64,000 nt of DNA from Bittarella massiliensis (ex Durand et al. 2017) (lineage in GTDB: Bacteria; Bacillota; Clostridia; Oscillospirales; Ruminococcaceae), in contig NZ_LN908977.1 in NCBI RefSeq assembly GCF_001486165.1, forward strand, positions 567,621-631,620, in the 5' to 3' direction. A program made the position numbers and the translations under genes. The notes beneath the pieces are model-generated. The model did no database searches and was not told the DNA's origin. It worked only from the letters and a program-made list of their open reading frames with translations. This document shows, one piece after another, positions 47,590 to 52,338 of this stretch (its first letter is position 1; the number at the start of each line of letters is the position of its first letter).

Positions 47590-47623
47590 AATTGATAAAA
47601 AGTTGAGAATTGCCGGGTAGACT
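47590..47623 (+). promoter_or_regulatory. Shared 34-bp element in front of the two-component system
   Basis: The element has two TTGA direct repeats 11 bp apart in an AATTGATAAAAAGTTGAG context, then TAGACT as a possible -10 located 20 bp after TTGATA. It matches 28 of 34 positions of the element at 49516-49549 in front of the ABC exporter. Direct repeats at one helical turn are typical of OmpR-family regulator sites. Confidence 0.75.
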
Positions 47624-47647
47624 GTTTGAAAAAAGGGGTGCTGTGAG

Positions 47648-48328
47648 ATGGGAGAGACACTGCTGATCGTGGACGACGAGGCCGACATCCGCGCCATGTT
47701 GCGGGATGCCTTTTTGCTGGAGGGCTACCGGGTCTTGACGGCCGCCAGCGGGGAGGAGGCCCTGGCCCTGCTGGAGCGCCGGCCCGATTTGGTGCTGCTG
47801 GACGTCTCGATGCCGGGGATGAACGGGCTGGACCTCTGCCGCCGGGTGCGGGACTTCCTGGCCTGCCCCATCCTCTTTCTCACCGCCCGGGTCGAGGAGG
47901 GGGACAAGCTGGCCGGTTTTTCGGCAGGGGGAGACGACTACGTGAGCAAGCCCTTTGCCATGCAGGAGCTCAGCGCCCGGGTGGCCGCCCACCTGCGGCG
48001 GGAGAGCCGCCGCCAGCACAGCGCCCAGGTCCGCTTTGCGGGGGAGCTGACCGTGGACTACTCCCAGCGCGCGGCCTGGGTGGCGGGGAAGGCGCTCCCC
48101 CTAGCCAAAAAGGAATTTGACATTTTGGAGCTGCTCACCCTCAACAGCGGCCAGACCTTTGACAGGGAGCGCATCTATGAGCGCATCTGGGGCTACGAGG
48201 GGGAGGGGGACAGCGCGGTGGTGACCGAGCACATCCGCCGGCTGCGGGCCAAGCTGGCCGCCGCCTCTCCCGGGCTGGAAAAGGGGCTGGAGACGGTCTG
48301 GGGGGTGGGGTACAAATGGGTCGGCTGA
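47648..48328 (+). CDS. OmpR/PhoB-family response regulator
   Basis: The 226-residue protein has a receiver domain with phosphoacceptor Asp in LVLLDVSMPGMNG (residue about 50), acidic pair VDDEAD and Lys in YVSKPFAM, plus a winged-helix DNA-binding domain (about 130-226) ending in WGVGYKWVG. It overlaps the kinase gene by 13 bp. It probably binds the 34-bp elements in front of itself and of the ABC exporter. ATG at 47648 follows AGGGG. Confidence 0.95.
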   Translation: MGETLLIVDDEADIRAMLRDAFLLEGYRVLTAASGEEALALLERRPDLVLLDVSMPGMNGLDLCRRVRDFLACPILFLTARVEEGDKLAGFSAGGDDYVSKPFAMQELSARVAAHLRRESRRQHSAQVRFAGELTVDYSQRAAWVAGKALPLAKKEFDILELLTLNSGQTFDRERIYERIWGYEGEGDSAVVTEHIRRLRAKLAAASPGLEKGLETVWGVGYKWVG

Positions 48329-49521
48329 AGCGGGCGCTGCAAAAGACCTCCATCCGCCGGGCGTTTGTCCTCTACACGGTGGGGGCGCTGCTGGTGGCGG
48401 GGGTCCTCTCCTTGGGCATCGGCTGGTCCACCGAGGCGGCCAAGGACGCCATCTACCGCAAGTACCAGCCCCCGTCCGGCCAGGTGGTGTCGGAGGGGGT
48501 GACCCTCCTTTTTGGGGCGGGCGGCAGGGTCTTGACCCCGGAGGACCGGCGGGCGGTCTCGGCGCTGACCGGGCTGCAAAACGCGGGGGTCGGGGCCGCC
48601 TTTGCCCTCTCGGTGATCGGGGCGGCGGCCCTCTTTTACCGGCGGCGGCTGGCCCGGCCCATCGCCCAGCTCAAGGACGCCTCGGCGCAGATCGCCGAGG
48701 GGAATTTGGACTTTGTGCTGACGCCGGTCAAGATGGACGAGCTGGGGGAGCTGGCCGTCTCCTTTGAGACCATGCGGGCGGCGCTGGAGCGGGCCGAGCG
48801 GGAGAACTGGCGGGCGCTGGAAGACCGCAAACAGCTCAACGGGGCCTTCTCCCACGACCTGAGGACCCCGCTGACCGTGCTGCGGGGCTATGCCGACATG
48901 CTCGCCGCCTATCTGCCCACCGACCGTCTCCCCCGCGAAAAGCTGTTGGAGGTGACCCAGTCCATGTCCCGGCAGATCGGCCGCCTGGAACAGTACACGG
49001 CGGGGATGAACGACCTGCAGCGGCTGGAGGACACCCCGGCCCGGCCCCAGCTGCTCGACCTGGAGGAGTGGGGCCGGGAACAGGGGGATACCGGCAGCCT
49101 GCTCTGCCGCCGGCGGGAGCGGTGCTGGCACTTCTCGCTGGCGGCCGGGGGCAGGGCCATGCTGGACGGGGCCCTGGCGGCGCGGGTCTTTGAAAACCTG
49201 CTGCAAAACGCCGTCTCCCACGCCTCGCGCCAGGTCTGGGCCGCGGTGGAGCGGGAGGGGGACTGGCTCCTCTTACAGGTGGAGGACGACGGCCCCGGCT
49301 TCTCGCCCGAGGCCCTGCAGCGGGCGGCCGACCCCTTTTACAGGGAGGAGAGAGAGGGCCACTTCGGCCTGGGGCTGAGCATCTGCCGCGCCCTCTGCCG
49401 AAACCACGGCGGCTCCCTCTCGTGGGGCAACCGCCCCGCCGGAGGCGCCCGGGTCACCGCCCGGTTCCAGCTAAAGCCCCTGGTGGAGGAAAAAGAAGAG
49501 ACAAAAATGGGGGACAATTGA
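48316..49521 (+). CDS. Sensor histidine kinase
   Basis: A 401-residue kinase: one N-terminal helix (about 15-37), a short (about 60-residue) outside loop, a second helix (about 92-112), a HAMP linker (RPIAQLKDASAQIAEGNL), the dimerisation helix with FSHDLRTPLTVLRGY (phospho-His at residue about 178) and an ATPase domain with N box ENLLQNAVSHA, G1 VEDDGPGFSP and G2 GLGLSICRAL. The small sensor loop resembles kinases that respond to cell-envelope-active compounds. It partners the overlapping response regulator. Confidence 0.95.
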   Translation: MGRLKRALQKTSIRRAFVLYTVGALLVAGVLSLGIGWSTEAAKDAIYRKYQPPSGQVVSEGVTLLFGAGGRVLTPEDRRAVSALTGLQNAGVGAAFALSVIGAAALFYRRRLARPIAQLKDASAQIAEGNLDFVLTPVKMDELGELAVSFETMRAALERAERENWRALEDRKQLNGAFSHDLRTPLTVLRGYADMLAAYLPTDRLPREKLLEVTQSMSRQIGRLEQYTAGMNDLQRLEDTPARPQLLDLEEWGREQGDTGSLLCRRRERCWHFSLAAGGRAMLDGALAARVFENLLQNAVSHASRQVWAAVEREGDWLLLQVEDDGPGFSPEALQRAADPFYREEREGHFGLGLSICRALCRNHGGSLSWGNRPAGGARVTARFQLKPLVEEKEETKMGDN

Positions 49522-49549
49522 GAAAAAGTTGAGGATCGGCTGGTACACT
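49516..49549 (+). promoter_or_regulatory. Shared 34-bp element in front of the ABC exporter operon
   Basis: Copy 2 of the element at 47590-47623: AATTGAGAAAAAGTTGAG followed by a TACACT -10 candidate. It begins on the kinase stop codon and lies about 30 bp before the ABC RBS, so the exporter has its own regulated promoter. Confidence 0.75.
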
Positions 49550-49581
49550 CTCCTTCGATGAGATATGAAGGAGGGTGTATT

Positions 49582-50475
49582 TTGTTGGAAGAGAACACAG
49601 TGGAAATACGGGACCTGTCGGTCACCTACGGAAAAAAGGAGGCCCTGTCCCACCTGGACCTGACGGTCCGCCCCGGGCTGTTCGGCCTTCTGGGCCGCAA
49701 CGGGGCGGGAAAGACCACCCTGATGCGCACCTTGGCGGGGCTGTTGACCCCTTCGGGGGGAAAGGCGATCGTCTGCGGGGTGCCCCTGCAGATGCGCGCC
49801 CAGATCCGGCAGATGACCGGGTACCTGCCCCAGGACTTTAACGTCTACCCCTCGATGCGGGTAGAGGAGGCGCTGGACTACCTGGGGGTCCTCTCGGGCC
49901 TTCCCCGGCGGGTGCGGCGGGAAAGGGTCCCCGCCCTGCTGCGGCGGGTCAACCTGGAGGAGCAGGCCGGGGCCCGGGTGCGCGCCCTCTCGGGGGGGAT
50001 GCGCCGCCGCCTGGGCATCGCCCAGGCGCTGCTGCACGACCCCCGGGTGCTGATCGTGGATGAGCCCACCGCCGGGCTGGACCCGGAGGAGCGCATCCGC
50101 TTTCGCAACCTGCTGGGGGAGGTGGCCAGCGACCGGGTGGTCCTCCTCTCCACCCACATCGTGGGGGACATCGAGGCCGTCTGCGAAAACCTCGCCGTGT
50201 TGGAGCGGGGGCGGCTGCTGTACAGCGGCTCGGTCGAGGGGTTGGCCGAGCGGGCCCAGGGGCAGGTCTACCAGGTCTCGGTGAGCCGCGCCCAGTTGGA
50301 AGCGCTCAAGGAGCGGTTTTCGGTGACCGCCGCCCTGCAGGAGGGCAGCGGCTTTGTCGCCCGGGTGCTTGGCGATCGGCCGCCCCTGCCCGCGGCCACC
50401 CCCTGCATGCCCGGGTTGGAGGACGGCTATCTCGCCCTCCTCGCCGAGGAGGAGAGAGGGGGTGAGGGGAGATGA
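49582..50475 (+). CDS. ABC transporter ATP-binding protein
   Basis: The 297-residue ATPase has the Walker A GRNGAGKTT (residues about 37-45), Q loop LPQDFNVYP, signature LSGGMRRRLG (about 142-151), Walker B VLIVDEPTAGLDP and H loop STHIVGD, in the exporter subfamily. TTG at 49582 follows AAGGAGG by 8 bp; the ATG at 49558 precedes the RBS. It overlaps the permease gene by 4 bp (ATGA). With the two permeases it forms an exporter, probably controlled by the two-component system. Confidence 0.94.
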   Translation: MLEENTVEIRDLSVTYGKKEALSHLDLTVRPGLFGLLGRNGAGKTTLMRTLAGLLTPSGGKAIVCGVPLQMRAQIRQMTGYLPQDFNVYPSMRVEEALDYLGVLSGLPRRVRRERVPALLRRVNLEEQAGARVRALSGGMRRRLGIAQALLHDPRVLIVDEPTAGLDPEERIRFRNLLGEVASDRVVLLSTHIVGDIEAVCENLAVLERGRLLYSGSVEGLAERAQGQVYQVSVSRAQLEALKERFSVTAALQEGSGFVARVLGDRPPLPAATPCMPGLEDGYLALLAEEERGGEGR

Positions 50476-51758
50476 GCGGGTGGTCCCTCTTTACAAAGGA
50501 GTGCAGGCGGGTGGTCACCGGACTCCCCTTCTGGCTGCTGGTGGCGGCGCTGCTGGCCTTTCTCTCCACCCAGTTCATGGCCGGGCTGAAGCCGCTGGAA
50601 GAGCCCCAGCCCGGCCTGGCGAGTTACGGCGCGTCCGACCGGGTGGACTGGGAGAAGGCCGTCCCCGCGGCCCTGCAGTCCCTGGCGGGGGAGTACGGGG
50701 AGAACCGGTACAAGACCTACCCCTTTGGCTTTGTCAAAACCGTCCGCCTCAAGGAGGAGGGGCGAGAGCGGATGGGGGAGCTCCTCTCCGAGCTGACCGG
50801 CAGGAGCGAGGAGGAGTTGGCCGCGGCCGCCCAGCCCGCCGGTTTCGCTGTCGGCGGGGGGGAACGGCAGCCGGACGGCTCCTTTGCCGTGCAGGTCCCG
50901 CAGGGGGAGGAGACGGCCCCCTCCCTTACCCTGGCCCCTGGCCTTGCCAGGGAGGACTTTGTGCGGCTGATGGGAGAGGCCGACGAGCTGTTGGGGGGCG
51001 GCTCCTCCTACGCGGCCGAAAAGCTGGCCGGCTTTGGCAGGGAGCCCCTGCGCTATGAAGAGGCGCTGGAACAGTACCGCCAGATGGTGGAGGAGGACCG
51101 GGTGACGGGGGCCTATGCCCGGCTGTTTTGCGACTACATGGGCATCCCCCTGGCGGTGCTCCCCGCCTTTGTGGCGGCGGCCCTCTGGCTGAAAGATCGG
51201 CGCGCCGGTGCGCGGGAGGCCGTCTGGTCGCGCCGGGTCTCCTCCCTCGCCCTGACGGCGGCCCGCTTTGGGGCCGTGATCGCCGCGGTGATGGGGGCGG
51301 TGCTGGTGCTGGCCGGGTGGATGACGGCGGTGGTGCTGGCCAAAAACGGCGACCTATCCGGCAGCCTCACCGCCTTTTTCAGCTACTCCCTGGGCTGGCT
51401 CCTGCCGGGGGTGCTGGTCTCCGCCGGGGTGGGGGCCTTCCTCACCGAGTGCACCGACACCCCGATCGCCATCTTCGTGCAGGGGGCGTGGTGGTACCTC
51501 TCCCTCTTTGCCGGGGCGGGCGATCTGGTGGGGGGCTACGGCTGGTCCCTGCTCATCCGCCACAACCGGTTGGGGGGGTACGCCGAGTACCGGGCGGGGC
51601 TGGTGCAGATCGCGGCCAACCGCCTGGTATACGCCCTGGCGGGGCTGTTGCTGATGCTGCTGACGGGCCTTGTTTTAGAGCAAAAGAGAAGGGGGAGATT
51701 TGGTGGAATGGGGAAAGCGCTACGCGTCCATCGCCGCTGTCAACGGGCGGCGGTATAG
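50472..51758 (+). CDS. ABC transporter permease (ABC-2-like)
   Basis: The 428-residue permease has one N-terminal helix (about 17-38), a long outside domain (about 40-215) rich in Glu and Gly, then about five helices (216-400). This is an ABC-2-like layout with a large extracytoplasmic loop. Its tail (QKRRGRFGGMGKALRVHRRCQRAAV after residue 403) is basic and overlaps the next gene by 59 bp. It follows the ATPase in the same operon. Substrate unknown; peptide or antibiotic export is typical of this arrangement. Confidence 0.85.
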   Translation: MSGWSLFTKECRRVVTGLPFWLLVAALLAFLSTQFMAGLKPLEEPQPGLASYGASDRVDWEKAVPAALQSLAGEYGENRYKTYPFGFVKTVRLKEEGRERMGELLSELTGRSEEELAAAAQPAGFAVGGGERQPDGSFAVQVPQGEETAPSLTLAPGLAREDFVRLMGEADELLGGGSSYAAEKLAGFGREPLRYEEALEQYRQMVEEDRVTGAYARLFCDYMGIPLAVLPAFVAAALWLKDRRAGAREAVWSRRVSSLALTAARFGAVIAAVMGAVLVLAGWMTAVVLAKNGDLSGSLTAFFSYSLGWLLPGVLVSAGVGAFLTECTDTPIAIFVQGAWWYLSLFAGAGDLVGGYGWSLLIRHNRLGGYAEYRAGLVQIAANRLVYALAGLLLMLLTGLVLEQKRRGRFGGMGKALRVHRRCQRAAV

Positions 51759-52338
51759 CCTGCCGTCCCTGCTGCTGGCCCTGGTGTTGCTGGCCCTGCT
51801 GCCGGTGCTCTTTGGAATGGCGGAACTGGATGCGGCCGCGGCCGCCCAGCCGCTGGAGATGGGGGCCGTTTTGATCGGGGTGGTGCTGCTGGTGCCGGTC
51901 TGCGCGCCGGAACTGGACAGCGGCGTGCGGGAGACGGCCGATGCCCGCCGCACCCCGGCCGTCGGGGTCTGCCTGGTGCGCACTCTGCTGGGCGCGGCCG
52001 CCGCCGCGGTGCTGCTGGCGGCGCTGGTGGGCTGGATGGGGCAAAACGGCTGTCAGGTGAGCGCCCTGCACTGGTTTGACGCCTTTGCCGGGGCCCTCTT
52101 TCTGGGGGGGCTGGGGATGCTGGCCCTCGCCCTGGCAAAAAACCAGGTGGTGGGGTACATGGTCCCGCTGCTCTACTACTCGGTCAGCCTGGTGTCCAAA
52201 AAGGGGCTGCTGGGGCTGCCCTCGCTGCTGGCCATGAGCAGGGGCGAGCCCAGCGGCGCCCCCGTTTTGGCGGCCGCCGGCGTGGGGGCGGTTGCCCTTG
52301 CCCTGCTGGCGCGCAGCCGCTGGAAGGCGGGGAGATAG
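51700..52338 (+). CDS. Second ABC transporter permease-like membrane protein
   Basis: The 212-residue protein has about six helices and no soluble domain: after a short basic start come LPSLLLALVLLALLPVLFG and several further Leu/Val/Gly-rich spans, ending in basic SRWKAGR. The start TTG at 51700 (or GTG at 51703) follows GGGGGAG. It overlaps the previous permease by 59 bp, more than usual, and probably pairs with it in the exporter. Confidence 0.78.
   Translation: MVEWGKRYASIAAVNGRRYSLPSLLLALVLLALLPVLFGMAELDAAAAAQPLEMGAVLIGVVLLVPVCAPELDSGVRETADARRTPAVGVCLVRTLLGAAAAAVLLAALVGWMGQNGCQVSALHWFDAFAGALFLGGLGMLALALAKNQVVGYMVPLLYYSVSLVSKKGLLGLPSLLAMSRGEPSGAPVLAAAGVGAVALALLARSRWKAGR

Follow-up and report, generated by a model that had tools for sequence, protein, structure and literature searches.

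The locus considered here raises the question of whether two similar stretches of DNA, one in front of a two-component system and the other in front of an ABC exporter, serve a single regulator that governs both operons. The window, that is, the whole stretch of 64,000 nucleotides that was analysed, is part of contig C9 of the 2.8 Mb, nine-contig genome of Bittarella massiliensis (ex Durand et al. 2017), and the features discussed lie on its plus strand. The first operon encodes a response regulator of the OmpR/PhoB type (47648-48328, 226 aa), in which a receiver (PF00072, Response_reg, 98.1 bits) and a winged-helix domain (PF00486, Trans_reg_C, 79.1 bits) are both present, and a sensor histidine kinase (48316-49521, 401 aa) with two transmembrane (TM) segments and HAMP, HisKA and HATPase_c domains. 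The exporter operon consists of one ATPase (49582-50475; TTG start behind AGGAGG, with an upstream ATG at 49558 open too) and two separate permeases, A (50472-51758, 428 aa) and B (51700-52338, 212 aa), whose roles are assigned from hydropathy, a predicted model and PF12698 matches in relatives. Neither window permease belongs to a named family of Pfam or NCBIfam, and the regulator, kinase and ATPase reach no NCBIfam cut-off among the best 25 families of each; for the regulator, these are the best 25 of 98 matched families, headed by MtrA (186.4 against a cut-off of 300). The nearest named relative found is Bittarella massiliensis, whose permease A is 92% identical and in which the gene order from glgB to feoB is retained. 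A phage origin of the locus was rejected, as a near-match search of a phage collection gave no match.

According to the original prediction, a 34-bp element with two TTGA repeats and a -10 region recurs upstream of both operons. The two copies, site 1 (47590-47623, 5' of the regulator gene) and site 2 (49516-49549, 5' of the exporter operon), were confirmed at exactly these coordinates with 28 of 34 positions identical, with TTGA repeats starting 11 bp apart (47592-47595 and 47603-47606 in site 1; 49518-49521 and 49529-49532 in site 2) and with a shared -10 region as the final six bases, TAGACT (47618-47623) and TACACT (49544-49549), respectively. Among 500 Markov-shuffled pairs of the two upstream regions, the top ungapped 34-mer match was 24/34, and the next best place for the element in the window, on either strand, scores 19/34. 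A genome search for further copies, which had been proposed together with the element, returned these two and no third, both under a 32-bp pattern with up to 3 mismatches and, when 1 mismatch at most was allowed, under a looser pattern of the repeat. Chance similarity of the two copies is ruled out by the shuffles and, as described below, by the upstream scores in relatives and the rarity in 40 genomes. The TGA stop of the kinase gene (49519-49521) sits within the first half-site of site 2; the idea that site 2 is kept merely via this overlap was rejected because in a number of relatives the site persists 20 to more than 100 bp past the kinase match (for example, in L064, L051, L096 and L083).

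Relatives were collected by a species scan, in which one genome each of 84,980 species was searched with the permease A alignment as query, and the best 80 of 81 were retained. With two loci without an ATPase gene and two with less than 150 bp upstream left out, 76 were testable for an exporter site, 57 of them from named Oscillospiraceae or Lachnospiraceae, two from Paenibacillaceae and the rest from other or unranked groups of Clostridia or without rank. The species-scan loci share several genomes with the family sample described below, and these are thus not independent (L022/L036, L023/L040, L024/L056, L025/L050, L026/L058 and L027/L076). The core of the site in these relatives is GTWGATAAAAAGTTGA, an 11-bp direct repeat, which in many loci is found once before the regulator gene and again before the ATPase gene. 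Within 450 bp before the ATPase gene, a site was recognised in 66 of the 76 loci, in 53 as a first form (threshold 13/16) and in 13 as a second form (threshold 14/17), while 10 exporters have no recognised site of either form; these thresholds reach into the tail of the shuffled regions, which attained at least 13 for the first form in 10/1440 cases and at least 14 for the second form in 8. When the best 16-mer within 300 bp upstream was scored, regions with less than 250 bp upstream being left out, at least 14/16 was reached by 35/55 regulators and 47/72 ATPase genes, compared with 1/1100 and 1/1440 of the respective shuffled regions.

The sites were selected without use of the -10 hexamer, and TAnnnT is in place in 53/53 sites of the first form and 13/13 of the second. 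In 85 aligned sites picked by the 16-bp core alone, +28 is T in 99%, +29 is A in 100% and +33 is T in 100%, a conservation that defines the site as an 11-bp direct repeat with a -10 at a fixed place. Three regulator promoters (L037 2101, L054 808 and L071 2127) carry a third half-site one helical turn upstream, which resembles what is described for ArcA sites in the excerpts available. A literature text search, to which logos and supplementary tables are invisible, gave no match to TTGATAAAAAGTTGA or to four spellings that include the 16-mer.

The OmpR-type regulator very probably activates both its own operon and the exporter via the 34-bp element, which would act as an activator-dependent promoter. 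The half-sites GTWGA and GTTGA, 11 bp or one helical turn apart, would occupy the place of the -35 box and would probably be bound by the phosphorylated regulator as a head-to-tail dimer, which would recruit RNA polymerase at the -10 hexamer lying at a fixed distance. One signal would in this manner raise the regulator and kinase operon, giving positive feedback, together with the three-gene ABC exporter. The same site might instead serve a regulator that represses both promoters, itself or in its unphosphorylated form, until the signal relieves them, and the site, its spacing and its conservation would look alike for either sign. However, the -10 hexamer follows the first TTGA-like hexamer by 20 bp and the second by 9 bp, and there is no -35 at 16-18 bp. 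As far as we infer, such placement is usual for activators of the OmpR-type family, which makes repression improbable and, from position, argues for activation.

The rarity of the site was assessed in 40 whole genomes, hand-picked from the 80 loci and mainly of the first form. With up to 1 mismatch, 64 matches were found in 38 genomes, at 0-2 per genome, against 1 match of the reversed control; 59 belong to the focal loci, 4 precede regulator genes that are unlinked to the exporter and 1 lies elsewhere. In almost every genome searched, the strict pattern marks no promoters other than those of the two operons. The four unlinked regulators belong to this clade and lie directly behind the site (L122, L123, L124 and L126), the first of them (match G532:C96) on another contig than the focal locus. 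Three further regulators in the genome of L047 (L125, L131 and L138) have no such site upstream. The lone extra full copy (L171 3293, minus strand; G563:C6:98760) is from Ruminococcus flavefaciens ND2009, where it precedes the genes for an HlyD-like adaptor (576 aa) and a MacB-like protein (~389 aa).

In a family sample of 148 genomes, permease A is found in 8, once as a weak match (G013, E 5e-6), and the motif with up to 2 mismatches has 13 matches in 10 genomes, against 3 matches of the reversed control. Of the 8 genomes that encode permease A, 6 carry the motif, compared with 4 of the other 140 (Fisher p 4e-7). Two genomes with the motif and without permease A (G147 and G057) carry a relative of the regulator right behind the motif, 63% and 51% identical; the matches in G103, G124 and G082:C4, at up to 2 mismatches, lie away from any regulator or exporter of this kind and are probably due to chance. 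Across the order, a pattern search matched 5/394 genomes, namely the genome of the window and G062, G194, G398 and G436, with one match in each of these four. Two genomes of the family sample show additional genes behind such sites. In G109 (L032 1302-3497, minus strand), a site located where the kinase gene ends is followed by genes for a VTT/DedA-type protein and a family-2 glycosyltransferase, and in G147 (L028 8725-11259), a weaker site precedes genes for a lipoprotein-like protein of 167 aa and for an ABC transporter that is more distant, downstream of a regulator operon that carries the full site.

Twelve exporters with a first-form site have no regulator in their locus, and many of these lie at contig ends. 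Five of the genomes were followed, as part of a regulator search that covered 10 chosen genomes, and in four of the five (L078, L092, L097 and L114) the regulator is encoded elsewhere behind the same site, on the contig of the exporter at a distance of ~6-7 kb in two and on other contigs in two. The presence of the site at both places in these split genomes speaks against mere local duplication. In the fifth genome (L084), a partial regulator is found at a contig end only (L136), with its upstream region beyond the contig. L040 (= L023, G109) has the exporter on another contig with a weak site (12/16), which resembles the diverged site (13/16) of its unlinked regulator.

These arrangements bear on the possibility that another regulator controls both operons through the site, for which one could cite that the regulator alignment matches 14 proteins in the genome of the window with an E of 1e-20 or better, albeit with the window regulator far ahead, and that the tie between site and protein comes from sequence comparison. 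Against it, the site precedes the window regulator's own gene, four of the five followed genomes with an unpartnered exporter carry it before a regulator of this clade elsewhere (the fifth yielding a fragment), and the form of the site shifts with the regulator clade, though once only, so that this possibility appears very remote. Equally hard to credit is an ordinary or alternative-sigma promoter common to the two operons and in need of no regulator, because, although the element has TTGA and a -10 and sigma-dependent promoters can be shared, the -35 spacing is wrong, an 11-bp repeat is present, there are at most 2 strict copies per genome in 40 genomes and the site tracks the regulator clade, including in the four genomes where the regulator lies away from the exporter. 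Control of its own operon and of the exporter by the adjacent regulator, as the original prediction had it, is supported by the cross-genome comparison, in which the site with its spacing, conservation and rarity, as well as the link between it and the regulator clade, is seen at the level of the DNA; binding, activation rather than repression, and export are what we would expect on this reading.

The second form of the exporter site (13/76 loci), which is like TAGRGAAAATRTAGRGA, keeps the same period. Residue 193 of the regulator, which, going by structures of PhoB, we take to lie in the recognition helix, directly precedes an EHIRR motif and is T in the window protein. It was compared with the site form in 53 loci whose regulator is matched almost full length, leaving out split matches such as L067 and L088. 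Regulators with A at this residue have the first form before the exporter in 35/40 cases and the second form in none (among the five uncounted cases, L055 and L060 score 13/16, and L072 and L104 have the site more than 300 bp upstream), and the single regulator with V also has a first-form site (1/1). Regulators with T or M have the second form in 11/12 cases, and the one that departs is that of Bittarella, whose sites read TTGA; the close pair of the window and L035 has T at residue 193, yet a first-form site. The Fisher test gives 7e-10, which overstates the link because on the regulator tree the two site forms are a single split, that is, one event. No first-form site of at least 14 is found in the 300 bp upstream of the regulator's own gene for 6/40 residue-A regulators, and among the 11 regulators whose exporter has a second-form site, 7 lack one upstream of their own gene and two of the remaining four have a weak one; autoregulation is therefore not universal. 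L098 has the site before the regulator, and none was found before its exporter.

Permease A was aligned from 75 of the 80 locus proteins and that of the window (76), and further analysis was carried out on 54 of those 75 and the window's. By hydropathy, the window protein has five TM segments and its relatives four to seven. Its large extracytoplasmic domain (50577-51137, ~residues 36-222) follows TM1, comprises ~187 residues with conserved YPxGFYKxVxL and GGGSxY motifs and is present in the 76 aligned sequences. An ABC-2 type core is suggested by the predicted model (pLDDT 76.6), whose TM core aligns with NosY (Z 18.6, rmsd 3.1, 225 residues), as well as by PF12698 (ABC2_membrane_3, cut-off 31.6), which is matched by two relatives at 35.9 and 37.2 bits and has no match in the window protein. 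A Foldseek search with the permease A model gave no match at E 0.001 or better, the best being NosY at 0.046, and when the PDB was searched by sequence with the alignment of permease A, a single match at chance level (E 0.13) was obtained. For the extracytoplasmic domain modelled alone (pLDDT 86.8), the best Foldseek match (E 1.8) likewise falls short of E 0.001, and the top Z in a second look is 3.8, on the basis of which the domain is given no fold assignment, which does not imply that the fold is new. Permease B has five TM segments by hydropathy and no Pfam match.

Paenibacillus albidus, P. jilunlii and Candidatus Pseudoruminococcus have other genes in place of the two-component system ahead of the exporter, one for an ECF sigma factor and one for a small protein (88-91 aa) that is apparently bound to the membrane (L079 3473-6834, L085 3471-6834 and L027 6267-9724, the last of which equals L076). 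The sigma domains were identified by Pfam in L027 and L079 and via a near-identical sequence in L085. None of these ECF-linked exporters (L076, L079 and L085) has a site of this kind, and the best regulators in their genomes are distant (E 1e-64 to 1e-85, compared with 1e-108 or better in the four split genomes). In these loci, control of the exporter seems to have passed to a different system; among the matches listed in the literature on rewiring and ECF-controlled exporters, none concerns this system.

As for the signal and the substrate, our guess is that both are peptides or antibiotics acting on the cell envelope, antimicrobial peptides being what the exporter might handle. This is based on the general company of CprRK and Bce systems and on extra candidate targets seen once each, namely the HlyD/MacB pair of R. 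flavefaciens and, in G109, the VTT-domain protein and family-2 glycosyltransferase behind the regulator operon.

Through the comparison, a resemblance between two sites becomes a rule for a regulon that can be put to the test. The rule recurs in Oscillospiraceae and Lachnospiraceae, many of them known from metagenomes only, and by it the site predicts the regulator that drives a given exporter even when the two lie apart. The comparison also draws attention to a family of exporters in common gut bacteria that is uncharacterised and, with one regulator clade, two site forms and one changing residue, provides a compact setting for the study of regulator-site co-change. Tentatively, and with a good deal of doubt, the locus could be seen as an unnamed, widespread sensing-export module of gut Clostridia whose private regulon comprises two promoters. 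On this view, a conserved pair of regulator and site guards a single family of exporters, for whose extracytoplasmic domain the search recognised no relative in fold; the family would have been rewired to ECF sigma factors in Paenibacillus and others and may be a main resistance device in the gut against envelope-active peptides or antibiotics.

The pattern of regulator plus exporter is itself of a familiar type, and so is the period of the site. Tandem direct repeats with an 11-bp period, which match the site in period and place, are described in the portions available for PhoB (a 22-bp box of two 11-bp repeats), ArcA (11-bp repeats) and RR_1586 of Clostridioides difficile (consensus DRTTAAGNWWWDRTTAAGNWWW) (PMC3978041, PMC3798270, PMC6222199), all of which differ from it in the half-site and in having many listed or mapped targets, versus at most 2 per genome in the 40 genomes. 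The TM core of NosY and other ABC-2 permeases resembles the modelled core of permease A, whereas the inserted domain of ~187 residues is apparently absent from NosY, judging by the length of its aligned structure.

BceRSAB of Firmicutes, as outlined in the available text, also combines a response regulator, a two-TM kinase and an ABC transporter with a large extracytoplasmic domain (PMC3023708). According to the same text, BceB spans the membrane ten times and carries its large domain between TM7 and TM8 (PMC3023708), whereas permease A has five to six segments, the domain after TM1 and, by its model, an ABC-2 type core. The short sensor loop that had been ascribed to the kinase, as in sensors of antimicrobial peptides, did not hold: by hydropathy, ~58 residues lie between its TM segments, and the loop spans 38-88 residues in nine kinases including that of the window. 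BceS-type loops are given, in the parts available, as 12 residues or fewer (PMC3023708) or about 25 residues (PMC5786555); the argument for peptide sensing from a short loop therefore fails, and sensing of the BceS type is ruled out by the loop length.

CprRK-CprABC of Clostridioides difficile, which has LanFEG-type relatives, is described in the accessible passages as a clostridial two-component system that induces an ABC exporter built, as here, from one ATPase and two permeases (PMC5786555, PMC10601699). Both permeases are small there (CprB and CprC, 27 and 29 kDa with six TM segments, in the accessible part of PMC5786555), whereas here only permease B is of small size, with 212 aa and five TM segments, and permease A has 428 aa. 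The loop of CprK, given there as 113 residues (PMC5786555), is longer than that of ~58 residues found here, and cprR is described in the available text as unlinked from cprK (PMC10601699), whereas regulator and kinase here share one operon. By its architecture, the two-component system with its exporter is thus neither of the Bce type nor of the Cpr/LanFEG type.
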